Source: a virus
DNA: 25,051 bases
Direction: 5' to 3' (one strand)
IMG/VR virus record: IMGVR_UViG_3300032893_002149
Coordinates: 1 to 25,051 of that record
Part shown: positions 1,761 through 23,968 of the stretch, piece by piece
How the letters are laid out: every line of letters starts with the position of its first letter
Numbering within the stretch: position 1 is the first letter of the stretch
Position numbers and translations under genes: made by a program
Notes under the pieces: generated by a model
Databases searched by the model: none
The model's input: the letters and a program-made list of their open reading frames with translations, nothing else
Told to the model about the DNA's origin: nothing

Positions 1761-2498
1761 TTAGGCGGATACTATTGGTTTGGTTGCTTTGCCCACGTAA
1801 CGAGCAAATACTTTGTAGAATTCTTCCACTGAAATTTCCATGGGCGCTCTATTGAAGCCATCACTCAGCACGTGAATGCAGAATGCAACTCCATCCTCGG
1901 CCTTTTTGTCAGGTATCTCTGCCCTTCTTAAAGGCCTTCGCCCTTTTTCTTTGGGTGGAGGAAATCCACGATGTATATAGTACCTGTTGTCCACACACAA
2001 CCTCATGCCGAGAGGTGCCAAAGTCAGTGACACCCACATCTCATCATTGTTGTCTTGCGGAAGAGGCGCATTCTTCACTGCCTCCATAGCTCTCCTCGAA
2101 AGCCAATAACAAAAACCCCAAGGTACAGATACTTTATCCCTGAGATTTCCTTGGACAATAGCGTACCCGTTGGACGGACCAACGAAGTCCCTATTACCAT
2201 ACCCAGACTTGAGGAAATAGTCTGGTCGAAGAACGACATCGTCATCGCACTTCAGTAAAAAATCATAGTCGTGATCAATTGCCCAGCGTATGACTGCCCT
2301 TACTTTTTCGGGAAGACAATCGTATGAATCCCCGCAGTCTAAAATTACTTCGTCTTCCAACAAAGGCTGGTGCTCTCCTCTGCCATAGAAAAACACCACG
2401 TCGACATTACTCTTTATCTCTGGTAACCACGTCGATCTTATAGCCACATTCCACGGCAATCTTTTGTGACAAGAAATCACGGCAACTAGGGCCTTCAT
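1761..2498 (-). CDS. GT31-like glycosyltransferase C
   Basis: A 245-residue paralogue, last gene of the sugar cassette. It reads MKALVAVISCHKRLPWNVAI-RSTWLPE, VDVVFFYGRGE, then YDFLLKCDDDVVL with an intact DDD metal site at 85-87. SVPWGFCYWLSRRAMEAVKN and NDEMWVSLTLAPLGMRLCVD follow, carrying the family's G-x-x-Y-x-L-S and E-D-V-like elements (here D-E-M). A C-terminal tail of ~50 residues is basic near KEKGRRPLRRAEI. GAGGA lies 11 bases upstream of an ATG that overlaps the preceding stop. It should act on the same glycan pathway as its neighbours. Confidence 0.8.
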   Translation of the reverse strand: MKALVAVISCHKRLPWNVAIRSTWLPEIKSNVDVVFFYGRGEHQPLLEDEVILDCGDSYDCLPEKVRAVIRWAIDHDYDFLLKCDDDVVLRPDYFLKSGYGNRDFVGPSNGYAIVQGNLRDKVSVPWGFCYWLSRRAMEAVKNAPLPQDNNDEMWVSLTLAPLGMRLCVDNRYYIHRGFPPPKEKGRRPLRRAEIPDKKAEDGVAFCIHVLSDGFNRAPMEISVEEFYKVFARYVGKATKPIVSA

Positions 2499-3361
2499 GC
2501 TCTAATTATCCTCAGCCTGCGCTGCGGGGCCTGCGGCCTTAGTTTTTTCCATTCCTCATCAAACCAAGAATTAGCTGACACATAAGAAATGTCACTCTCT
2601 TTGCCTTTTCTTAGGAGACCATACATCCCCCTGTCTGTCTCCATGTCAGCATTCGCCGCTATCCAATTTGAACGGTACAGATGGATAGCATATGCTCCCT
2701 CGGGAAGAGTTTGGGGCTGGTTATCATCCCACAACCTACTCAGGTTCCACCACGACAAAGGGTTGAGAAGAGGAAGAGGCAAAACATACTTCAAAAGGTC
2801 GGGAAATTTACTCACTATGGTACCAGTAAACGAAGACGGACCAGTATCTTTCCAGTCAAAGCATCTCAAACTTCTTGATGCCATCTCCTCCATCAACGGA
2901 GAGTTCTTTGGGGCTTTGTACGTACCGTTGATGATGTAGATGAAGTCACCCGACTGAGTTCTTATTGGTACCTCTCCACTTTCGTATAGAGGACCAGACA
3001 AAGACTTGACTTTCATTCTGTCGGCATCAAAAACATAGTCAGAATCAAAATCAAAAGGACGCAAACAGTATGTATCCAAGTCCACCCACCATCCACCCAA
3101 GGTTTTTATCAGGTGGTAGCGGAAAATGTCTGACAACACGGCATACTTGTCTTTAAAAACTTCCGGGTTGATCAAATCCAACGGAAGAACATCGGTGATG
3201 GATCTCTGCTCTGTCCCAAAAGGGAGAGGACCTACATCCCCGTACGTGTAAAGATGGAATTCATGGCCATTTTTGAGGAAGGAATTTATACACAGCCTTT
3301 CCATCATTCCTATATGGCTTCCTATCCACGCACTTTGTATCACTCGGTTGGATTCTTGCAT
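2495..3361 (-). CDS. GT32-like DXD glycosyltransferase B
   Basis: A 288-residue paralogue of GT32 A. It shows NRVIQSAWIGSHIGMMERLC (5-24), NGHEFHLYTYGDV, FRYHLIKTLGGWWVD, and VDLD at 93-96 as the metal and nucleotide-sugar site. GDFIYIINGTYKAPKNSPLM and PEGAYAIHLYRSNW follow, the latter matching the H-L-W region of the paralogue. The ATG at 3361 lies 22 bases inside the end of the RmlD-like gene, with AGAGGA seven bases upstream. Its stop overlaps the next start (ATGA). The C-terminal ~60 residues differ from GT32 A and end in a basic RRLRIIRA. Confidence 0.8.
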   Translation of the reverse strand: MQESNRVIQSAWIGSHIGMMERLCINSFLKNGHEFHLYTYGDVGPLPFGTEQRSITDVLPLDLINPEVFKDKYAVLSDIFRYHLIKTLGGWWVDLDTYCLRPFDFDSDYVFDADRMKVKSLSGPLYESGEVPIRTQSGDFIYIINGTYKAPKNSPLMEEMASRSLRCFDWKDTGPSSFTGTIVSKFPDLLKYVLPLPLLNPLSWWNLSRLWDDNQPQTLPEGAYAIHLYRSNWIAANADMETDRGMYGLLRKGKESDISYVSANSWFDEEWKKLRPQAPQRRLRIIRA

Positions 3362-4236
3362 TTAAATTCCTCTGCATACTCTGCTAAACAGGTTTTCCAG
3401 TCTCGCATGACATACAGACCCTCTTTTATGAGCCTGTTTGGGAGGAGCTTTTCACTCAACGGGCGCGGAGCAAAGTACTCTTTAGACCAAAACGATGAAT
3501 CTACTCGATTCACTGTCACGTTCGCCCCCAAAAGCCGTACGAATTCACATGCGACATCATATCGAGTACAAGACCCTGAGCAAACCTGATTATAAACTCC
3601 GAATTTTTTGGACTTTAAGAGGGCATCTATCCCCTTAGCAAAGTCCACAGTGTACGTCGGGGTCCCAGCCTTGTCATCTACGACGTTCAACTCAGTTGAG
3701 CCAGCCTTGATGAGCTTGAAAATTTTGTTGATGAACTTCTTGTCCTTCTCTGGACCTCCACCCATCATCCAACCTGCCCTGATAACGTAGTGTTGTGGAA
3801 TAGATCGAGCCGATAGCTCACCCATGTACTTGGTCCTAGCATACACAGATAACGGATTCGGTTCATCCTCGTCTGAAAAGTACTCCTTTTCTCCACCGAA
3901 TATACCTGCAGTAGAGATATAGACGTACGGAAGATCATACTCTGAACACATATCGGCTAAAAAAGAGGCTGCAAAAGAGTTAACGTCTTCTGCTTCGTCT
4001 GGATTCAATTCACACATTTCCATATCTGTTTTAGCCGCGAGATTTATGATCTCTGTAGGATGAAACTGATTGATACGAGAGACTACCCCTGCGTAATCTG
4101 TGATGTCTTGATATCTGACCCAAGGGGATGAGAGGTCAATGTCTGTGGCGTCTACAATATTTTCTTTAGAAAAATGCTTGTATACTGCGTCTCCCAGCAT
4201 TCCTCCACATCCGAAGATCATGATGCGTCTTTCCAT
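3340..4236 (-). CDS. RmlD-like NDP-sugar reductase/epimerase (extended SDR)
   Basis: A 298-residue short-chain dehydrogenase/reductase of the dTDP-4-dehydrorhamnose reductase (RmlD) type. The Rossmann loop is GCGGMLG at 9-15. INLAAKTDMEMCE matches the family's N-x-A-A-x-T-x-V-D-x-C-E stretch. YISTAGIFGG and SVYARTKYMGE give the catalytic Y-x-x-x-K (Y132, K136). RAGWMMGGG resembles R-x-x-W-x-x-G. It probably makes a nucleotide sugar, perhaps a deoxyhexose, for the neighbouring transferases. The exact reaction cannot be told. The ATG at 4236 is preferred over the one at 4263 because AGGAG lies eight bases upstream with the GACTCAG element, and it avoids overlap with the previous gene. Confidence 0.82.
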   Translation of the reverse strand: MERRIMIFGCGGMLGDAVYKHFSKENIVDATDIDLSSPWVRYQDITDYAGVVSRINQFHPTEIINLAAKTDMEMCELNPDEAEDVNSFAASFLADMCSEYDLPYVYISTAGIFGGEKEYFSDEDEPNPLSVYARTKYMGELSARSIPQHYVIRAGWMMGGGPEKDKKFINKIFKLIKAGSTELNVVDDKAGTPTYTVDFAKGIDALLKSKKFGVYNQVCSGSCTRYDVACEFVRLLGANVTVNRVDSSFWSKEYFAPRPLSEKLLPNRLIKEGLYVMRDWKTCLAEYAEEFKCKNPTE

Positions 4237-4247
4237 CTGAGTCACTC

Positions 4248-4943
4248 CTAGCTGTTCAACCATCGTGCATGTACTTCGTGCATCTTTATTGGGTCGTAGT
4301 TATGGGGTCTCGGCCTCACGTTAACCACGTCCGACAGATGGCTAGTCACCTTGGTGTTTCTTTTTTCTGGTCCCGGCATTATTTGACCAGCGAACTCTAA
4401 TACCTCTCTGGCGTCTGCCCTCACTATGTCTGGATGCTCGGACAGAATCAAGCCGACCCAGATGTCTTCGGCCCCGGCGTTAGCCGCATTCCAATTGGGA
4501 TGCTCTGGGCCTCTATCACTTTTTATGGGGGCGTTTATCAAGTACTCCATGGCTTTCCTGCTTAGGCAGTATCCGTGACCTCCACAACAAAAGAACCCCG
4601 GCCTAAAATCTCCCCAGTAATCAGCTTTATCCCATTGACAAGTCATCAAACGCTCTACGCACACGTAGGTATCGGGAAAACATCGGAAAACGAAGTTGTA
4701 TCCCATATCAAAGGCCCAACGTAAGCTCTCTTTAGTCTTATGGGACATATGAGAATAGTCGTCAGGAACATCAAGGACTATCACATCCCCCTTTGTAGTG
4801 GCTCCTTGACCATGGAAGAATTTGTAGTCCACCCTTAACTTGTTGGCCTCGGGCAACCATGTATCTCTTTGGGCATCGTTGATCTTGTTTGCCTCAAAAT
4901 ACTCGCAAGAGGAAATAGCTATCAGCAAATCACTGTTCCTCAC
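4248..4943 (-). CDS. GT31-like glycosyltransferase B, altered DXD
   Basis: A 231-residue paralogue of the other GT31-like proteins. From the GTG at 4943 it reads (M)RNSDLLIAISSCEYFEANK, then QRDTWLPEANKLRVDYKFFH, GYNFVFRCFPDTYV, GGHGYCLSRKAMEYL and AEDIWVGLILSEHPDI. At the metal site (88-92) it has CFPDT where the paralogues have TDLDT and CDDDV, so the first Asp is replaced by Phe and only the last remains. I chose the GTG because AAAGG lies six bases before it, it overlaps the previous stop by four bases, and it aligns with paralogue N-termini. An upstream in-frame start at 5045 would extend about 100 bases into the previous gene. Activity may be changed or lost. Confidence 0.75.
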   Translation of the reverse strand: MRNSDLLIAISSCEYFEANKINDAQRDTWLPEANKLRVDYKFFHGQGATTKGDVIVLDVPDDYSHMSHKTKESLRWAFDMGYNFVFRCFPDTYVCVERLMTCQWDKADYWGDFRPGFFCCGGHGYCLSRKAMEYLINAPIKSDRGPEHPNWNAANAGAEDIWVGLILSEHPDIVRADAREVLEFAGQIMPGPEKRNTKVTSHLSDVVNVRPRPHNYDPIKMHEVHARWLNS

Positions 4944-5797
4944 ATACCCCCTTTGAGATATTTTTTGATCAGGTCCCCATAAAGAGAACCTTCTATGACA
5001 ATTTCTTTGTCTTGAAGTATAGGCGGGCATCCTGTTATCTTCCACGTATGCTCATCCTTCCAGTTGGTTCTTCCTGACCACATATCATTCCATAAGTGAA
5101 CAGCAAATGTAGATTCTGACCAATGCCACTCCACGTCTGGGTTGGAAAAGTCTCGCACTCTTCTCCAGTCCACTGGATTGAACGCTTCTGTGCCCAATAT
5201 AAACTCTCCCATAGAGTATTTGTTGACGAGAGAATCAATGAGCATCGGCCCTACTTCTACCGACCAGTTAACCTTGGATGGATCATAGCCCTTACAGCGG
5301 TTCCATGCCTCTAGCATCAGATTGCTTCCAGCAGGAAACTTCATGCTATTGTTGCATACCACCGAGCCTTCATTTGCAGACCAAGGACCCATCCTGCCGA
5401 GAGAATATGGGGCCGATATTGAGAAGTTTTTAAGACAAATCAAATCGGTATCTACCCACCAACCACCTTTTTCCAATAGCAGCTTGATCCTAAAATAATC
5501 TGCGAAGGTTCCATTGTTTATAAACCTGCGGTAGTCATACTCTTCCCTAGGAAGAACTTCATTTCCGTTTTTAACAACTACCCCTTCAGGTATACCCTCT
5601 ACTTCATCGTACACATAGAGATGAACTTCGTGCCCATTATCTATATACGACCTCATACACAGCTTTTCCATGATGGACAACTTGCCGTGTGTCCAAAGCG
5701 TTTGGATGACCTTATTCGGATCTTGATTCGGGTACTTAAAAGGAGAAGGACTGCACACTTGAACGGCGTCTGGTCTGAATCTTCTCAGGGTTCTCAT
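4940..5797 (-). CDS. GT32-like DXD glycosyltransferase A
   Basis: A 285-residue transferase of the Gly_transf_sug (DXD sugar-binding, OCH1-like) type. Visible marks: PNKVIQTLWTHGKLSIMEKL (28-47), NGHEVHLYVYDEV, TFADYFRIKLLLEKGGWWVD, and the metal-binding VDTD at 115-118. NPVDWRRVRDFSN and FAVHLWNDMWSG follow, the H-x-W region of the family. GGAG lies six bases upstream of the ATG, which overlaps the preceding stop. Its own stop overlaps a GTG start of the next gene. It forms a pair with GT31 A that recurs later in the cassette. Confidence 0.8.
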   Translation of the reverse strand: MRTLRRFRPDAVQVCSPSPFKYPNQDPNKVIQTLWTHGKLSIMEKLCMRSYIDNGHEVHLYVYDEVEGIPEGVVVKNGNEVLPREEYDYRRFINNGTFADYFRIKLLLEKGGWWVDTDLICLKNFSISAPYSLGRMGPWSANEGSVVCNNSMKFPAGSNLMLEAWNRCKGYDPSKVNWSVEVGPMLIDSLVNKYSMGEFILGTEAFNPVDWRRVRDFSNPDVEWHWSESTFAVHLWNDMWSGRTNWKDEHTWKITGCPPILQDKEIVIEGSLYGDLIKKYLKGGM

Positions 5798-6555
5798 CTA
5801 AATCTCCGCAGAGGTCTCCCGGTACCAACAAGGGATAGTACAGGGACTCGATTGTACAGAGACAATCCCGCAGGACCTTCTAAGTACGCTCTCCGCATAA
5901 TGTCTGCAGTGTAAGGTTCTCTCTGCACTCCTGCGGCTGTTTGCACTGTAGTATTATACCCTAGAGTGCTCGTCAAATGGTAGGAAATAGTGTTACCGTC
6001 AAATACCGCCCTAGGCTCCCATTTGTACCGTGGATCAGGGTGTAGTTCTATTCCCTTTCTTTTTAAGGCCTGAGCAACAATTACATCTTCCTCTGGACGA
6101 GGAGGATCTGGATGCTCCAAAGAAGCCACAATCTCCACCGACTTTCTGCTAAGCCAGTATCCTGCTCCTCCACTTGCAAAAATTCCTGTGCTCTCAGAGC
6201 CGTTGCCTCCCAAAGATACTGGGCCGTTCTTCCCTCCGACATAATCGTAAAGATAGAAGTCGTTGGCCAAGAGATTCTTAGGGACTACCAGAGTATCAAG
6301 ATCGGTTTTGTAAACGAAGTCATACCCGTTTTTCAAAACCCATTTGCTCTGCTCAATAGTCTTAGCGGTGCAATAGTCGTAGCCGTCCCCAACATCTAAA
6401 AATACCTCGTCACTATCTGCATCCTCAGTGTTTGGATTTCCCAAAAAATATCTCAAGTCTACTTCCTTAGGGATATCTTTGATCCACGTTTGCCTTTGAG
6501 AGTCTTGGAGGTGCCTGAGACTATGACAACTCGCTATTGCTATGAGTATTTTCAT
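5794..6555 (-). CDS. GT31-like (galactosyltransferase-type) glycosyltransferase A
   Basis: A 253-residue nucleotide-sugar-dependent transferase, cytoplasmic with no signal or membrane segment. From the chosen ATG, MKILIAIASCHSLRHLQDSQ is followed by RQTWIKD (21-27), the R-x-T-W signature of GT31. Then come DLRYFLG, GYDFVYKTDLDTLV with the metal-binding DLD at 85-87, GGAGYWLSRKSVEI, and PEEDVIVAQALKRKGIEL with the acidic residues of the family's E-D-V motif. The start at 6555 is preferred over upstream in-frame positions because it forms an ATGA overlap with the fibre gene and matches the N-termini of the two paralogues. Its stop overlaps the next start (ATGA). The sugar and acceptor are unknown. 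Confidence 0.8.
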   Translation of the reverse strand: MKILIAIASCHSLRHLQDSQRQTWIKDIPKEVDLRYFLGNPNTEDADSDEVFLDVGDGYDYCTAKTIEQSKWVLKNGYDFVYKTDLDTLVVPKNLLANDFYLYDYVGGKNGPVSLGGNGSESTGIFASGGAGYWLSRKSVEIVASLEHPDPPRPEEDVIVAQALKRKGIELHPDPRYKWEPRAVFDGNTISYHLTSTLGYNTTVQTAAGVQREPYTADIMRRAYLEGPAGLSLYNRVPVLSLVGTGRPLRRFR

Positions 6556-7319
6556 GGGAAGATAGAGGAATTCGGCTTTACTGTTCCCCCTCCAGTGGTG
6601 AATAACACATAGTCTCCACCAGAGTACCAAGCAATGTTTCCTGCAAGCTGCATGGTCATGGGTATAAGATTAGAATGAGGTATAGCGGCTGCATTAGTGC
6701 ACCGAGCGATTTGGGTGCCGTTCAAATACCAACCAGCGCTGCTACCATCGGGAGCCACTATGATCTTCAAGTCCATGGGTCCAGATGTTCCACCAACACC
6801 TAATACTGGAACACCACTGTCAAAAGAAAAAGATGTGGTAGTGAACCCATCAAAATTGGCGCATAGACATAGGAGAGTGTTTTGATTTGTGTAGGAAGGG
6901 GGTAGGGATGCTTTAAAACCTATGTACGTAGTATTTCCCGCCCAATTACCATCGTTGGACAACCCAATCTGCATGTTGTAGCTATTGTATGCGGGATTGA
7001 GAGCCGTGATATCCATGTCTATCTCATAGGATATCCCAAGATTAAACCCAGTAGTGCCCTCGAAATTAGTACTGAATCCCACCAGAGCAAAACCCAGATG
7101 AAAAGTGTAGTCTGTACCGTTTCCTCCGGTGACAAATTCTGGAGCTAAATTTCCGGGAGTCCATCCATAATCCCCTGTAGCTCCTCCGAAAGGAAACTGC
7201 TGCATGGAATCATGCACAGTGTTCCACCACGGCTGAGCCTCATTTCCGGGAATCCATTCTGCAAGGACTTTATTCCTGTAGGGGATGATTCCAGATTCCC
7301 GAAGGCCCACGCTCATCAT
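6552..7319 (-). CDS. Receptor-binding or fibre-like protein with lectin-type beta-sandwich
   Basis: A 255-residue protein. After an N-terminal ~40 residues (ESGIIPYRNKVLAEWIPGNE, WWNTVHDSMQQFPFG) most of the chain is a beta-sandwich: SYEIDMDITALNPAYNSYNM, NTLLCLCANFDGFTTTSFSF and GPMDLKIIVAPDGSSAGWYL-NGTQIARCTNAAAIPHSNLI. The last resembles the D-x-Y/W-x-x-G strand pair of concanavalin A-like or laminin G domains. Such domains bind sugars or hold fibre tips. It begins at TAATGATG overlapping the fibre gene and ends with an ATGA overlap into the first glycosyltransferase, so it is linked to both. Confidence 0.65.
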   Translation of the reverse strand: MMSVGLRESGIIPYRNKVLAEWIPGNEAQPWWNTVHDSMQQFPFGGATGDYGWTPGNLAPEFVTGGNGTDYTFHLGFALVGFSTNFEGTTGFNLGISYEIDMDITALNPAYNSYNMQIGLSNDGNWAGNTTYIGFKASLPPSYTNQNTLLCLCANFDGFTTTSFSFDSGVPVLGVGGTSGPMDLKIIVAPDGSSAGWYLNGTQIARCTNAAAIPHSNLIPMTMQLAGNIAWYSGGDYVLFTTGGGTVKPNSSIFP

Positions 7320-13111: not shown

Positions 13112-13129
13112 CCAAAGTTAAAACTTTGG
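13112..13129 (-). terminator. Hairpin overlapping the tRNA 3' end
   Basis: CCAAAGT and ACTTTGG pair over seven bases around a four-base loop, on the minus strand starting with the CCA of the tRNA itself, and are followed by TCCTTTGCTT. It could be a weak terminator or compete with tRNA 3' maturation; no U-run is present. Confidence 0.35.
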
Positions 13130-13204
13130 CTGACGCGGCAGGATTCGAACCTGCGACAAAGAGGTTAACAGCCTCCTGCTCTGACCAGTCTGAGCTACAC
13201 GCCA
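13127..13204 (-). tRNA. tRNA-Asn (anticodon GTT), CCA encoded
   Basis: The full cloverleaf can be read. The acceptor TGGCGTG pairs with CGCGTCA (two G-U pairs). The D-arm is GCTC/GAGC. The anticodon stem GGAGG/CCTCT encloses the loop CTGTTAA with GTT at 34-36. The variable loop has five bases. The T-arm GCAGG/CCTGC encloses TTCGAAT. The discriminator is G, and CCA is encoded. The gene sits between the capsid and fibre-type genes, as phage tRNAs often do, perhaps to supply Asn decoding during late expression. Confidence 0.95.
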
Positions 13205-13290: not shown

Positions 13291-13308
13291 AAAGACCGTT
13301 AGACGGTC
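13291..13308 (-). terminator. Hairpin over the capsid stop codon
   Basis: On the minus strand GACCGT-CTA-ACGGTC forms a six-pair stem with a three-base loop containing part of the stop codon, followed by TTTGG. The U-run is short, so it is at best a weak terminator. Confidence 0.4.
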
Positions 13309-13378
13309 GGTACTGCCGCGTTCTGAATGTACAATCCAGCGCGAGGTGCCGCGTTCACCAAGTTAAAGCAGGTGTTAT
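13299..13378 (-). CDS. Capsid gene exon 3
   Basis: Twenty-five full codons plus two bases: (Y)NTCFNLVNAAPRAGLYIQN and on to AAVPTV, then TAA at 13299-13301. The stretch has no start codon of its own, follows the endonuclease ORF, and restores a sensible capsid C-terminus when joined to exon 2. Confidence 0.75.
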
Positions 13379-15990
13379 CATTTTGTTGACACTTTGTAGT
13401 GGTTTATATATGCAAGAGCTTTTTCCATCCACGTACCCTTTTGGGGAACAATTGTTGCCGATTCTAGAACAAATTCTATCTGCCCAATTCTATAGTTGCA
13501 TGTAGGACAAAGTATTCCTCTGTTGCACTTCCCACACCCTCGTTTTGGACAACAACTGTGATCGTGATCTACTCCCATACGTTTTCTATGAGATTCTTGT
13601 GTAGATCCACAAAGAGCACAGCGATTATTTTGTTCTTTCAGCTTGGTTTCATACCACTCTATCGTAGTGTTATAGAGTTCTTTCATCGCCTTACGACGAA
13701 GATACTCTGGATCTTTTTTGTCTCTCCAATTTTTAAAATACTCGGAACGACACACTCGACACTGAGAATTGAAACCAAATTTTTCTTTCTGAAAAAATTC
13801 CTCGGTAAGAGGTTTTTCTTGCTTGCATTTTCTACACACTCTTGTGTGGTTGGTCATTTCTGCCAATCTCTTACGGTTTGTACCCGTAAGGTCGGACTAT
13901 CGCATCACGCTTTGCTAAGGCGCGTCCTCTCACTTAGTCTCTCAGGCTGCTTTTCGCTTGCCCCTTGTTAGCTTTTAAGCTTTCAAGTCAATCAGAGAAG
14001 ATTTTACTTGCCCATAACCATCTGTCTAGGCAAACATGTGGCTCGTCAAATACGAACCAGAAGCACCGTTGGCCGCATCCGGCACTGGTGCCACGACATT
14101 GCCACCACCGAAGTCATACAACTCCAGAGGAGACAACTCACCCATGTACCAGTTGTCGAGAACAAGCAGGTCCATGCGGTTCGGGGAGAACGTCCACGAC
14201 TTGTGGTAGCGCCGTCCACCGAAGGTGTCGCTGAAGTACTTCTTGGACATATCGAGGGTCTTGTCACCCTTGATGTCCTGAGCATTGGCAATCTGAACGT
14301 TGTACTGCAGGTTCGACTGCGCAAACGCCTGCTCGGGCGGGCCGTACCAGACAGCCGATTTGATGCTTTCAGCATCGGGACCAAGTGCGCGGCCAAGCAG
14401 AACTTCTGCACGCTGCGACAGACCGGGGGTAATTGCCGCACCAGCCAAGTTAATGGTCGGAGTGCTCAAACGTCCCGGATAGGAAGCGCGATTCAACCCG
14501 CCGATAGTGCCAACGTTTGAGTTCACGTCCCATGCCTTGATACCAAGCAGCGATGCGCCGCTGCCATACGTTGCTCCAGACACAACGATGTAGTCGGTGA
14601 CCACAACGTCAGAGGGAAGCGCGGTGCTAAAATACAGGGTATTGCTGGGACCGTCGACATACGAAATCGTAGACGAAGAGACACCACCACCTGTACGCTT
14701 CACACCACCAGTGCTGTAAAACTGAACAACCTGCTGATCACTGAACGCCACTGCAACGTTCATACCAGCAATACTTGCAGTCTGCGCGGCAGGAGACCCG
14801 CCCGACAGGACAATAGTCGCTGTCGAAGGAATCTGATCGATCATGCCAGAACCATCGGCGTTGATCAGACCTTCAATACCCTGCATTGCAGCATCAAGGC
14901 TGTTCTTCATTTCTTGCGCTTTCACGGCAAACAAGCCCTTCTGCTTGCTATCCGTCGATGCCTGCGCCAACCAAGAGATTTCACCAAAATGTTACTTTGT
15001 GTAAAATACATTGCCCCATAAGCAACCTTTTACACACGGGGTAGCATTTCTGTACCCTCTCCGCATCACTACGAAGTTCGGACTATAACTTCTTCAGCCG
15101 TTACTGAAGGTTGTCGTTTAGTCTCTACGGTAAAATCCGCACCATAGTTCCTGTTCATATCTCGAACAGTCTTGATGATTTGTAAATCTCTTTCAGTGAT
15201 TTCTTTTACTCGTTGTCCCTCTTTCCTGCGTTCCAGATACTCAAGGACCAGAGTGGCTTGTTCCTTTTTACCACTAAGAAACTCGCCAACCACTTTCAAG
15301 TAAGCCTTTGCGCTATCCATACCTTGCACATGCACTGCATAAGGACGCTTCTTGGCTTTCTTGTTCCACTCTTTTTTAGGAGTGAACACTTTATGCTTAA
15401 TGCACAAAGTTCTGAGAAGAGATGTTACACTTTCAATTATCAGTGGGTTGGAGTTTGCCACCGCGCATACAAAAACCACAGGAGAATGAATTACATTCAC
15501 ATCAGTTTTTGATTTATGGTAGACAAAGGTAATTGTTCCTTCTCCATCCATAATTCCTGCGAGGTATCCAACTTGCAAATCTGATAATCTCGGATTTCTT
15601 ACCACGGTATTTTCTACACCCATATTTACCTCCATGGAATGCTAGGTCTTCACCGTTATGGACAACTTTTAAACGCCCATGAAATTTTTAGACGTTGAAC
15701 AGATAGATCGGGCTTACCGCGAAAGATGCCCACTGCGAACCGCTACCGCGACCCATAGAGTCGGCGTTACCAGTTCCCTGAGAAATTGCCGCACCAGCCT
15801 GCACCCGGAACGGGACGCGGAATGATGCACGAGTTGTTCCACCAGCAGTAGTCTGGTTAGAAACGGGGACCTTCGTTGCCTCTGCCTTAAAAAGGCTGTA
15901 GGCGGTAGTACCATGGAAGACCAGATCAGGAATCTCTTTTGCAAAAGCTTCCAATTCCACTGCTTCCACAGCGGCTTCTAAAAGTGCCAT
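13299..15990 (-). CDS. Major capsid protein, split by two group I introns: join(15692..15990, 14028..14983, 13299..13378)
   Basis: This is the main shell protein of the head, in the position after portal and scaffold. Exon 1 gives residues 1-99 and two bases of codon 100, exon 2 gives 101-418, and exon 3 gives 420-444, with V100 and Y419 each coded across a junction. The joined frame reads IYLFNV-EISWLAQ at junction 1 and TSHMFA-YNTCFN at junction 2, and closes with YIQNAAVPTV and TAA. Unspliced, exon 1 stops after 100 residues and exon 2 at the TAG 14026-14028, so no intact capsid protein can be made without splicing. An insertion-like beta domain runs roughly 140-230 (SGGSPAAQTASIAGMNVAVA onward), and the conserved-looking FGGRRYHKSWTFSPNRMDLL is near 370. 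The HK97 fold is inferred. AAGAGG lies upstream of the ATG. Junctions come from RNA pairing and frame, not from transcripts. Confidence 0.8.
13378..13857 (-). CDS. Endonuclease VII-type HNH homing endonuclease in intron 2
   Basis: A zinc-dependent HNH endonuclease of the recombination endonuclease VII family, expected to drive intron spread. From the chosen ATG it has 159 residues. Numbered from the longer TTG start at 13866 (162 residues), it shows an N-terminal zinc pair set CRKC (11-14) and CRVC (36-39), a second CALC (83-86), the catalytic stretch VDHDH (99-103), then RGILCPTCN (116-124) and IGQIE. This matches the family pattern DHDH...RGLLC..CN..IG. An extra CCPKRGCGKC lies between DHDH and RGILC, longer than usual and possibly another metal site. 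Neither start has a strong ribosome site. The TGA stop spans the 3' splice junction: its last two bases flank it and one base belongs to exon 3. Confidence 0.85.
   Translation of the reverse strand: MTNHTRVCRKCKQEKPLTEEFFQKEKFGFNSQCRVCRSEYFKNWRDKKDPEYLRRKAMKELYNTTIEWYETKLKEQNNRCALCGSTQESHRKRMGVDHDHSCCPKRGCGKCNRGILCPTCNYRIGQIEFVLESATIVPQKGTWMEKALAYINHYKVSTK
13379..14027 (-). ncRNA. Group I intron 2 in the capsid gene
   Basis: This is a 649-base group I intron candidate. P1: exon end UUUGCCU (14034-14028) pairs along all seven bases with the guide GGGCAAG (14013-14007), with the U-G wobble at the splice site. P10: GUUAU (14018-14014), directly next to the guide, pairs perfectly with exon 3 AUAAC. 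P7 is GACTA (13939-13935) with TAGTC (13899-13895) in the context ATAGTCCG, and ACGC/GCGT between them can form P8. The core lies wholly upstream of the endonuclease ORF, which therefore sits in the P9 region. The intron ends in G at 13379. Confidence 0.8.
14028..14983 (-). CDS. Capsid gene exon 2
   Basis: This exon codes for EISWLAQASTDSKQKGLF through GSYLTSHMFA and ends at the T of GCCT. The frame is open across its 5' end: the residues EISWL precede the first plausible in-frame start codon, which shows that it is an internal exon and not a gene with its own start. Without splicing the frame ends at TAG 14026-14028. Confidence 0.8.
14984..15691 (-). ncRNA. Group I intron 1 in the capsid gene
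   Basis: This is a 708-base self-splicing intron candidate. P1: exon end UUCAACGU pairs with the internal guide GCGUUUAA (15676-15669) with a terminal U-G and one mismatch. P10: AUUUCA (15685-15680) pairs perfectly with the first six bases of exon 2, UGAAAU. The intron ends in G. P7 is GACTA (15123-15119) with TAGTC (15085-15081), in the classic context TATAGTCCG. P8 is CTTCAG/CTGAAG-like, with TTCAG and CTGAA at 15108-15104 and 15097-15093. The homing endonuclease ORF occupies most of it and runs into P7-P8. Confidence 0.8.
15069..15623 (-). CDS. LAGLIDADG homing endonuclease in intron 1
   Basis: An intron-borne DNA endonuclease that would cut intronless alleles and spread the intron by repair. 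The 184-residue protein has one LAGLIDADG motif, GYLAGIMDGEGTITF, at about 19-33, with the acidic catalytic position (DGE). One motif per chain means it should act as a homodimer. The rest has the family's alternating beta and helix pattern (VVFVCAVANSNPLIIESVTS, LLRTLCIKHKVF, RPYAVHVQGMDSAKAYLKVV). I chose the ATG at 15623 because GGAGG lies five bases upstream; an in-frame ATG at 15635 has a weaker site. The last ~18 codons overlap the intron's P7 and P8 elements, so sequence there serves both RNA fold and protein. Confidence 0.85.
   Translation of the reverse strand: MGVENTVVRNPRLSDLQVGYLAGIMDGEGTITFVYHKSKTDVNVIHSPVVFVCAVANSNPLIIESVTSLLRTLCIKHKVFTPKKEWNKKAKKRPYAVHVQGMDSAKAYLKVVGEFLSGKKEQATLVLEYLERRKEGQRVKEITERDLQIIKTVRDMNRNYGADFTVETKRQPSVTAEEVIVRTS
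15692..15990 (-). CDS. Capsid gene exon 1
   Basis: This exon codes for MALLEAAVEAVELEAFAKEI through SPIYLFNV and ends at the T of AACGT. That T forms the conserved U-G wobble pair of P1 in intron 1. Read without splicing, the frame stops at TAA 15688-15690, directly after the junction. Confidence 0.75.
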
Positions 15991-16050
15991 AAAAATATTA
16001 CCTCTTACAGAATAAAGTCGCCTAACAAATCTCTGAGTGATCTGTTTACG

Positions 16051-16311
16051 CTACGCTGAGTCATATCCTGCAAGACAAACACAGTTCCAGCATCGCATCT
16101 CAAAGTACGAGTAAAGCCTTGATGCGTGGTTGGCTATCCACACTCGTTCCTCTTGAATAAACACCTTCATGCATTTTCTTACGATCTCTACTATCTCCAC
16201 GAGTTCTAGTGCCCGACACTTTGATAGAGAATCATAGAGCTTTGTTGCTATTTCGAGATAAATACATCTCCTTAGTATCCATCTCAGAAGATGAATACTG
16301 AGGAGAGACAT
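16051..16311 (-). CDS. Small unknown protein upstream of the capsid gene
   Basis: An 86-residue protein starting MSLLSIHLLRWILRRCIYLE and ending LYSYFEMRCWNCVCLAGYDS-A. It is basic and helical in the first half, and the last 20 residues hold four cysteines. The frame stays open upstream to 16452, but I chose the ATG at 16311 because GGAG lies four bases before it and the longer version would run deep into the previous gene. It begins 13 bases after that gene's stop and fills what would otherwise be a 334-base gap before the capsid gene. I do not recognise the family. Confidence 0.55.
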   Translation of the reverse strand: MSLLSIHLLRWILRRCIYLEIATKLYDSLSKCRALELVEIVEIVRKCMKVFIQEERVWIANHASRLYSYFEMRCWNCVCLAGYDSA

Positions 16312-16324
16312 TGCTCTCCATTTG

Positions 16325-16525
16325 TTAAACTGTTTCTGTTGAAGCCCCACAGTCATTAGCCTGAACCGACAATGAGTTTCCACTGTTAAACGCTTTGACA
16401 GAAATCGTAGCTGTGGGACCATAACCAGAAATAGCAGTGATGCTCCCAACAATTGTTACCTGATCTCCAACGTTCATCGGTTTGCCTGATAGACTGTTCG
16501 CCTGTTGGCCTAAAGTTTGAGACAT
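16325..16525 (-). CDS. Small beta-rich virion-type protein
   Basis: A 66-residue protein with a compact beta pattern: VGDQVTIVGSITAISGYGPT, then ATISVKAFNSGNSLSVQAND. The alternation of hydrophobic and polar residues with glycine turns suggests a small OB-like or Ig-like barrel. It lies between scaffold and capsid genes, where decoration or stabilising proteins are often found. AAAGAG precedes the ATG. The function is inferred only from fold character and location. Confidence 0.55.
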   Translation of the reverse strand: MSQTLGQQANSLSGKPMNVGDQVTIVGSITAISGYGPTATISVKAFNSGNSLSVQANDCGASTETV

Positions 16526-16545
16526 TTATTACTCTTTCTCTGAGC

Positions 16546-22184: not shown

Positions 22185-23858
22185 CTACTGAACTAGGTTC
22201 CCTTTCACCATCCATACCGGGACCCTGTCTTGAACAAAGGTTGCCTTTTTCTTTTCCAACTCTGCCTGCATCTTCATTAAATAGAAGTGCGCGGCGATTG
22301 GGTCCAGAGTTTTGGCGTGGTCTTCTATTCTTTGTTCCTTGGGTTGATGGCTAGATTTGTGCTCTCCGTATAGGCCATATCTGAAACCGTCATAACAGTC
22401 ATCGCCTTTGGCGTCTGTCTTAAGGACATCGTCTATAAGATCGGGATTCCTCATCAATCCCGGTATAGACAAAATAATATCCTTGCATACGTCCAGAATT
22501 ACTAGCTCTCCGTTTTTCAGTTTATTGTACATGAAAGACGCAGAACCAATACGGTCTTGCGTTGCTCTAGTTACAACAGGCAAGCCACGTTCTCTCAGTG
22601 CCCTTGAATAATCATCGGCTGGAGAATGCTTGTCCATTTGACGACTGAATTTTTCGTGAGAAAAATAAATCGCCTTGATTTTTACTGGGTCTCCATTAGG
22701 CAGTTTTGCCTTGGTCGCTAAGATTGAGGCCAGTTCTAAATACGTCTTCCCTCCGGTGACTACTATTTCTTGAAAACACACTGTCTTCAAAACATAGTCG
22801 TTACCCACTGACTTTTTCACCAACGCTTTGGTAAAAAAGTAGCACGCATTGGCGTGTCCCATGCCCCAGTCTTGTCCAACCCAGACGGGTTGCCAAGGTT
22901 GCCATATGATCGCTTCTGGATCTTCTCTGAGATTTATTACATGATACTCAGGGTCCCAGACATCAAAGTATTGGCCTTCGAATTTTCCATCTAAACCAAG
23001 GAGTAATTTATCCCGCTTGGCTTTGGGCATGGCTTGCAACCTTCCCAGAAGGAGAGGATCTCTTCTCGTCATTTCCGGGTTGTCTAATAGGGTCGATCTT
23101 TGGTATGCGTAGTCCTCCGGGTTATGGATGCAGCGCCATTCTCCTGCCTCCTGTACCCACCATGTGCCGTTGGTCAAGTCCTGACGAGCATCGTCAGGTT
23201 TATTCCAAGGTTCCTTCTCCACAAACTTAGTTCTGTAGTATTCGTAATGAGGACCCAAGGGGTTTGTGCAGCCCACAATGCAAGGTATAGGCATGTGCCC
23301 ATGTTCATCTGGCTGACAAGATGCATTGGGAGTATTACGAGAGTAGAGCATTTCCCATGCATCAGGAGAGAACTGACCACATTCATCCACCAATATTGCA
23401 GCGAACGCCTGTCCTAAATACTGCTCGATGTCTCTGTCCTTGTTGTTCTGGCAGTGACCAAACACTACACGAGAACCATTCATCAATGTAGCGACGTGCT
23501 TGGTGCTATCGTATTCATACAGTTCTTCCGGCATGAAAGCTTTGAAATCTGCGATAGCACCACTTTCCAATTCCTTGAACGTACGACGAAGTACTAAGAA
23601 GTCGCAATGTGGATATTTAAAACAGTAATGCTGAATAAAGTACAGCAACCAACCCACAGTTTTTCCACTTCTGATGCCTCCAACACTCAAGCACTGATGC
23701 GCCTTGGGTTGTATGTACATAATCCCGTCACGCATTAAAGGACGAAGAAGTTCTGTCTGCTTCGGCTGGAGGTTGAATATTTTGGAAAAATTTATCGTCC
23801 CTTTTCCATCTAGATATGCGGGACGTTCTTTTTCTTCCTTGCTGACCTTTCGTGGCAT
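22185..23858 (-). CDS. terL: Terminase large subunit
   Basis: This is the ATP-driven DNA packaging motor and headful or site-specific nuclease, acting at the portal vertex. The protein has 557 residues from the chosen start. The Walker A loop GGIRSGKT is at about 60-67, and the Walker B strand with its catalytic Glu (AAILVDECGQ) at about 153-162. The C-terminal RNase H-like nuclease shows its first Asp in VWVGQDWGMGHANACYFF (about 330) and an acidic cluster GDDCYDGFRYGLYG at about 485-498. I chose the ATG at 23858 because GGAAGG lies upstream at normal spacing with the ACTCAG element seen at other starts here. An in-frame ATG at 23900 has no ribosome site. Downstream genes follow closely with the portal not far away, as in other phages. 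Confidence 0.93.
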   Translation of the reverse strand: MPRKVSKEEKERPAYLDGKGTINFSKIFNLQPKQTELLRPLMRDGIMYIQPKAHQCLSVGGIRSGKTVGWLLYFIQHYCFKYPHCDFLVLRRTFKELESGAIADFKAFMPEELYEYDSTKHVATLMNGSRVVFGHCQNNKDRDIEQYLGQAFAAILVDECGQFSPDAWEMLYSRNTPNASCQPDEHGHMPIPCIVGCTNPLGPHYEYYRTKFVEKEPWNKPDDARQDLTNGTWWVQEAGEWRCIHNPEDYAYQRSTLLDNPEMTRRDPLLLGRLQAMPKAKRDKLLLGLDGKFEGQYFDVWDPEYHVINLREDPEAIIWQPWQPVWVGQDWGMGHANACYFFTKALVKKSVGNDYVLKTVCFQEIVVTGGKTYLELASILATKAKLPNGDPVKIKAIYFSHEKFSRQMDKHSPADDYSRALRERGLPVVTRATQDRIGSASFMYNKLKNGELVILDVCKDIILSIPGLMRNPDLIDDVLKTDAKGDDCYDGFRYGLYGEHKSSHQPKEQRIEDHAKTLDPIAAHFYLMKMQAELEKKKATFVQDRVPVWMVKGNLVQ

Positions 23859-23968
23859 CTGAGTTGCCTTCCTTGAATTTCCTGAGGGTTCAACGCACAT
23901 TCGACCAGATCACAAAAATGATACGGGTCACACAAAACTTGCAATGAATCGCCAATCATCGGGTCCAT
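23810..23968 (-). CDS. Possible 52-residue micro-ORF overlapping the terminase start
   Basis: An ATG at 23968 is preceded by GGAG with seven bases of spacing and opens 52 codons ending in TAG at 23810-23812. The product starts MDPMIGDSLQVLCDPYHF and ends with a basic tail (RSARKKKNVPHI). The last 49 bases overlap the 5' end of the terminase gene in another frame, so coupling is possible. It fills an otherwise empty gap of 183 bases. The case rests only on the ribosome site, the position and a protein-like composition in the part outside the overlap. The basic tail is encoded inside the terminase gene and may be an accident of frame. Confidence 0.35.
   Translation of the reverse strand: MDPMIGDSLQVLCDPYHFCDLVECALNPQEIQGRQLRCHERSARKKKNVPHI

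Follow-up and report, generated by a model that had tools for sequence, protein, structure and literature searches.

The major capsid gene of a viral genome fragment in IMG/VR (record IMGVR_UViG_3300032893_002149, 25,051 bases, analysed in full and referred to here as the window) is very probably split by two group I introns that bear nuclease genes of unrelated classes, a reading to which we assign a probability of about 0.9. The gene runs on the minus strand from 15990 to 13299, and its three coding blocks join as one open frame. Exon 1 (15690..15990) comprises codons 1-100 and the first base of codon 101 and ends in ...AACGTCT, exon 2 spans 14028..14984, and exon 3 (13299..13378) includes the stop codon. 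All three were delimited by spliced alignment to uninterrupted homologues, and the product of the corrected joint is exactly 445 amino acids plus the stop codon.

Searching IMG/VR with window exon 2 recovered 57 related loci, ten of which have a single uninterrupted open reading frame (ORF). All ten (L002, L004, L005, L007, L009, L038, L041, L044, L045, and L058) read (F/Y)(N/S)VCEISW at the first junction. The original prediction had removed 15691-14984, which yields FNVEISW and a protein of 444 residues, one cysteine codon short of the homologues' FNVCEISW. When the window gene was aligned with splicing to the intronless L038, the introns fell at 15689-14985 and 14027-13379 whether or not splice bases earned a bonus. 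Because all ten uninterrupted homologues keep the cysteine codon, the boundaries of intron 1 were shifted, the 5' one by two bases and the 3' one by a single base; the P1 and P10 helices of this intron thereby become contiguous, which is independent support for the new boundary. Intron 2 had been placed exactly, and the open frame, the U preceding the 5' splice site, and the terminal G (omega G) hold for both introns. The predicted perfect P10 comes to 7 base pairs (bp) in intron 1 at the corrected boundary and to 5 bp in intron 2. Alignment with intronless homologues had been set beforehand as the refutation test, and in at least ten uninterrupted homologues the match extends over every one of the three exons, not exon 2 alone.

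The identity of the gene comes from structure prediction. An AlphaFold2 model of L038, for which 42 uninterrupted relatives were used, has a mean predicted local distance difference test score (pLDDT) of 76.5 and matches HK97-fold capsids over the whole chain (7f38_A of cyanophage A-1(L), Z 21.6; 1ohg_A of HK97, Z 16.3); in BFVD it matches the capsid protein of Arthrobacter phage Jasmine (E 1.6e-21). NF033394 is the sole capsid match at the sequence level (E 0.0048), and the protein has no match in PHROGs or Pfam and no relative among 50,697 records of isolated phages. A terminase gene lies upstream of the capsid gene (22185-23900). The original naming of the gene as a major capsid gene agrees with this: by its modelled fold, the encoded protein is the HK97-fold major capsid protein of a tailed phage.

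Two introns with unrelated nuclease genes

Intron 1 (14985..15689, minus strand, 705 nucleotides (nt)) interrupts codon 101 in phase 1 (site 101.1 in relatives). Its guide (15672..15685) consists of a P10 half, AUUUCAU (15685-15679), directly followed by a P1 half, GGGCGUU (15678-15672), and forms 7 + 7 contiguous bp (P1 AACGUCU/GGGCGUU, P10 GUGAAAU/AUUUCAU). Within the intron lies a gene of 188 amino acids (15069..15635, minus strand) with a single LAGLIDADG motif, LAGIMDGEG, and orthologues at the same site in L027, L032, and L036. The product matches LAGLIDADG_3 with an E value of 4.6e-4, just short of the curated cut-off (20.8 bits against 22.5), and Hom_end with 18.4 bits (cut-off 21.1); motif and domain together identify it as a predicted LAGLIDADG homing endonuclease, as the original prediction had it. 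Its best PHROG match is phrog_5046, which is labelled HNH endonuclease despite the LAGLIDADG motif, and it has no relative among isolated phages. The gene interrupts the ribozyme core and overlaps it at both ends, starting in the P5 region and stopping in P9; the 3' half of the core (P7-P3-P8-P7'-P9) lies at 15023..15206 on the minus strand and is backed by RNA folds of four orthologous introns. The window and L027 share 87.4% identity in intron 1, while their exons share 74.3%, as homing predicts.

Intron 2 (13379..14027, minus strand, 649 nt), also in phase 1 (site 421.1 in relatives), has its guide at 14007..14018, with a P10 half GUUAU (14018-14014) and a P1 half GGGCAAG (14013-14007); its P1 is 9 bp long. 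P1 plus P10 pairing exceeds chance in each window intron (p = 0.002, the floor of 500 shuffles). A complete ribozyme core (13824..14036, minus strand, the match extending 9 bases into exon 2) is located 5' of an endonuclease VII-type (Endo VII-type) homing-endonuclease gene (13378..13857, minus strand) that has an ATG at 13857 in an ORF open from a TTG at 13866. The stop codon of this gene, TG|A (13378-13380), straddles the 3' splice junction and is shared with exon 3. The predicted enzyme class is well matched (Pfam Endonuclease_7, E 1e-13, 51.4 bits against a cut-off of 23.6; PHROG endonuclease VII, E 3.6e-23), and the domain has its zinc cysteines and a DHDH motif; relatives among isolated phages are less than 60% identical. 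At the same site L003, L006, and L022 have ORF-less introns of 202-203 nt. The proposal that the two introns are of separate mobile origin stands insofar as the nucleases are unrelated, but for intron 2 it applies to the nuclease, the ribozyme belonging to an ORF-less family found at 13 sites of this gene.

Covariation in relatives points to group I ribozymes. A covariance model (R1) was built on an alignment of 28 compact introns taken from other genomes and sites, with the site of intron 2 excluded and no window sequence included. Compensatory changes occur in 32 of the 43 pairs of P3-P9.1, including the P7 pseudoknot, and the covariation score is 0.538, compared to 0.07 for slid-partner controls. 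On the window R1 matches intron 2 with 160.8 bits (E 1.7e-42) and the 3' half of intron 1 with 24.7 bits (E 9.4e-6), and a scan of the whole window gave no further match. Judged from these alignments and, for the 5' half of intron 1, mainly from folding, both window introns have the conserved P3-P8 core with the P7 pseudoknot. Eight introns of relatives (56-78 bits) pass the cut-off of the Rfam group I model, including that of L042 at the site of intron 1 (63.3 bits).

Three separate polypeptides with free-standing nuclease genes between them would account for the in-frame stops that end the first and second coding blocks and for the nuclease ORFs having starts of their own, but such an unspliced arrangement is extremely improbable. 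Exon 3 encodes 26 residues and lacks a start codon from which that peptide could be made, the junctions fall within codons, intact homologues are one continuous ORF, and intron 2 has a complete group I core.

Intron spread across the capsid clade

Across 42 loci, spliced alignment of the IMG/VR relatives gave 91 full-size introns, of which 71 are distinct in sequence; they occupy 22 sites, eight of which fall in the last ~30 codons. A U before and a G at the end at all 102 boundaries are partly favoured by the aligner, and 67 of 92 boundaries were unchanged without the bonus. Additional C-terminal introns were recognised in L017, L028, and L033 by Rfam, model match, and eye. We left out L037, which has frameshifts, and inserts of 24-27 nt in distant relatives, which were in-frame alignment artefacts. 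Among about 50 relatives the capsid gene has between zero and six full-size introns, with a patchy distribution over the capsid tree; the roughly 1.3-kb gene of L032 has six as well as a small insert. The two introns singled out in the window are thus present but not the extreme. Over whole records, the model matches are nearly all inside the capsid gene. Distant relatives (about 45-75% identity; mostly shorter contigs, and also Acidobacteria metagenome-assembled genomes) are intronless except L115 and L050. The former has a LAGLIDADG-bearing intron at site 11 (approximately L115:3757-4411) in an otherwise intronless distant subclade. Four distant capsid relatives (L135-L138, 47-48% identity over 90 amino acids) come from Acidobacteria metagenome-assembled genomes, one of them named Granulicella, and may serve as a lead to the host phylum.

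The ribozymes fall into three classes by sequence: a compact family at 13 sites, mostly without an ORF, one of ~240 nt at sites 328-437, and one at sites 11 and 101. The nuclease genes encode similar LAGLIDADG proteins at 101, 121, and 148, Endo VII at 379 and 421, and a GIY-YIG-like protein at 22, the last called by sequence. In the tree of the compact introns (class 3), different sites interleave, with 23 site changes among 39 introns; supported joins between sites link 7 with 425 inside L032 and the window's 421 with site 22 (the window row is long-branched). The guide of every intron copy matches the site at which that copy resides. Interleaving sites and site-matched guides together indicate that ORF-less introns moved within the capsid gene, and reverse splicing is what has been proposed for moves of this sort (PMC3984707).

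A free-standing Endo VII gene directly follows the capsid gene in 29 of the 33 relatives where this could be tested (e.g., L006:6375-6755, L022:6419-6796, L042:6649-7122, and L011:6468-6806). There is none after the window capsid gene; the sole Endo VII ORF of the window, which is related to these free-standing genes, is inside intron 2. The downstream gene is present in 23 of 24 relatives with 3'-end introns, and three of the four relatives without it also lack such an intron. The simplest reading suggests collaborative homing followed by nuclease capture for intron 2, and Endo VII-type collaborative homing has a precedent in F-CphI (PMC6083498).

We propose that during late transcription each intron would fold, dock its P1, and excise itself using external guanosine, with P10 aligning the next exon so that the 445-residue subunit is restored. 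Intron 1 would spread through its own LAGLIDADG enzyme, which is predicted to cut intronless capsid alleles. Intron 2 would have begun as an ORF-less ribozyme from the family that hops among capsid sites, likely by reverse splicing or illegitimate recombination, and would then have been spread by the Endo VII encoded beside the capsid gene; in the window, that gene appears to have been captured into the intron, 3' of the core. On the distribution of these elements, the capsid gene of this clade is apparently a resident habitat for group I introns.

Deletion of nuclease genes after ordinary homing, an alternative stated in PMC10448857, could also have produced ORF-less introns, and sites 22, 101, 121, 379, and 421 each have both nuclease-bearing and ORF-less introns. 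We consider turnover of this kind, in place of reverse splicing and collaborative homing, rather unlikely: no nuclease-bearing intron was found at most sites, the interleaving of ribozymes across sites requires ectopic moves, and the guide is matched to each site.

Several points weigh against intact, mobile group I introns in the window. The Rfam group I search proposed in the original prediction (RF00028) left both introns below its cut-off (intron 1 with 19.3 bits, E 0.069; intron 2 unmatched even at E 10), and a transfer RNA (tRNA) alone reached the gathering score. The 5' half of the intron 1 core is backed mainly by folding and one compensatory pair, and the excess of intron over exon identity is only modest in the comparisons with L036 (82.7 versus 71.7%) and L032 (77.1 versus 75.4%). 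The association of downstream Endo VII with 3'-end introns is borderline in the clade (p 0.052) because the nuclease is nearly universal there. Splicing of both introns is deduced from sequence, and cleavage by the nucleases is predicted. The reliance on sequence, together with the record being a 25-kb fragment without a completeness value, also leaves some room for degenerate insertions in a decayed or assembly-damaged gene that makes no functional capsid protein. We regard this as very unlikely: the exons are without exception open and conserved, compensatory changes preserve the pairs of P1, P10, and the core, and the same intron sites recur in contigs of many separate samples. Even in relatives rich in the small inserts described below, pairwise differences in the codons upstream of the inserts are 129 synonymous versus 5 non-synonymous.

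Small inserts without a catalytic core

Eleven loci have inserts of 39-49 nt at codon 7, 16, or 22, found by lowering the length limit in the alignment; they add one further position, 16.1, to the 22 sites of full-size introns. The cases represent at least five independent ones: L014/L020/L029/L032/L034/L049 (e.g., L032:1228-1268, L014:473-513, L020:225-264, and L029:89-128), L021 (3699-3737), L036 (3800-3848), L042/L043 (L042:4305-4343), and L053 (4447-4492). Each insert is preceded by U, ends in G, and has an in-frame stop within three codons; its P1 of 5-9 bp adjoins a P10 of 5-8 bp (p at most 0.006 in every case). At 39-49 nt they are too short for the P3-P8 catalytic core and lack it, so that, with P1, P10, and omega G present, they would be group I-derived at most. 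Some insert ends look like a compact intron minus its middle (L021: ...AAUAAA...GUAAAAUG). The ratio of 129:5 upstream of the inserts indicates that the upstream exon is translated and kept. For capsid protein to be made, the inserts must be removed, and no known splicing mechanism accounts for them.

In all 11 insert loci, and in none of the 54 others, codon 22, 34, or 39 is the site of a full-size intron, which in the insert loci lies 18-83 nt downstream of the insert (p 1e-12, uncorrected for kinship). The same holds for five of five independent changes, from which L039 was left out since its contig begins inside the site-22 intron. Tentatively, and with the odds somewhat against it, we suggest that the inserts are non-autonomous, core-less group I introns excised by the core of the downstream full-size intron. 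Action of a neighbouring core on the P1-P10 helix of an insert is chemically plausible by analogy, because engineered group I ribozymes excise introns of 100 nt inside cells (PMC4509937) and adjacent group I introns are able to cooperate (PMC10136302). Excision by the neighbouring core leaves unexplained why an insert stands upstream of every full-size intron at 22-39.

Four other explanations were considered, of which the first two were rejected. Translational bypassing finds no landing match, as the take-off codon is GCT or CCT and the inserts end in AAG, CTG, TAG, or ATG. A single large intron comprising insert, short exon, and next intron is at odds with the short exon staying coding and with each junction having its own P1 and P10. 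A separate core elsewhere is disfavoured by model matches lying almost all in the capsid gene, although cores unlike the model would escape. Finally, an insert whose only role is to halt ribosomes ahead of the next intron would suit sites 22 and 34, with first stops 8-11 codons in, but not site 39 (0-2 codons). Pattern scans for further small inserts gave no new contigs. If excision by the neighbouring core is true, nature would have its own version of the engineered spliceozyme, with the inserts as RNA parasites that live on another parasite.

Neighbouring genes and comparison with known systems

A tRNA-Asn gene (GTT) lies just past the capsid gene (13127-13204). The ~555 nt upstream of the capsid start (15991-16545) have no clear gene and no nucleotide similarity to the compared relatives. 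The window also has a run of sugar-modification genes (1761-6630) with glycosyltransferase-like ORFs, several of them interrelated, and an RmlD-type enzyme (3340-4263), which perhaps serve virion or host-surface glycosylation.

Each virion requires hundreds of copies of the capsid protein, and the capsid gene is the last one expected to depend heavily on RNA splicing. The clade offers a natural series, with zero to six introns, more than 20 sites in a 1.3-kb gene, mobile ORF-less introns, nuclease genes inside and beside introns, and core-less inserts. This series bears on how ORF-less group I introns spread and on whether one ribozyme splices another's insert in nature. In practice, gene callers and Rfam overlook introns of this kind, and the capsid genes would be annotated as broken.

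A capsid gene with two introns is of a known kind, though an unusual example. LittleE, a Cluster J mycobacteriophage (PMC3706429), likewise has a group I-type intron with a nuclease gene in its major capsid gene, with U before and G at the end; splicing was shown there, and it has one intron at one site compared to more than 20 sites and up to six full-size introns here. Several group I introns per phage gene, many with nuclease genes, are also known from Bastillevirinae (PMC11878797) and Twort orf142 (PMC10136302). Those introns, for which splicing was shown, number at most three per gene, average 802 nt, and reside mainly in polymerase and terminase genes, whereas those of the present clade are mostly compact, ORF-less, ~200 nt long, and almost wholly confined to the capsid gene. 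The capsid gene of Faustovirus E12 (PMC6247863) is similar in having many introns, five of them group I and two with nuclease genes, but it is an unrelated gene of a eukaryotic giant virus, and its remaining introns are spliceosome-like. F-CphI, encoded beside the intron-bearing psbA gene of cyanophage S-PM2 (PMC6083498), resembles the free-standing nucleases described here in its Endo VII motif and position; in our case the gene beside the nuclease is a capsid gene with numerous sites of intron insertion, and in the window the nuclease appears to have entered the intron. Spliceozymes (PMC4509937) parallel what we propose for the inserts in that a group I core removes a separate, core-less intron of ~100 nt from a pre-mRNA, but they are engineered and their substrate recognition was designed differently. 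Among the published phage cases compared, which have at most three introns per gene (PMC11878797), this clade is an extreme case.

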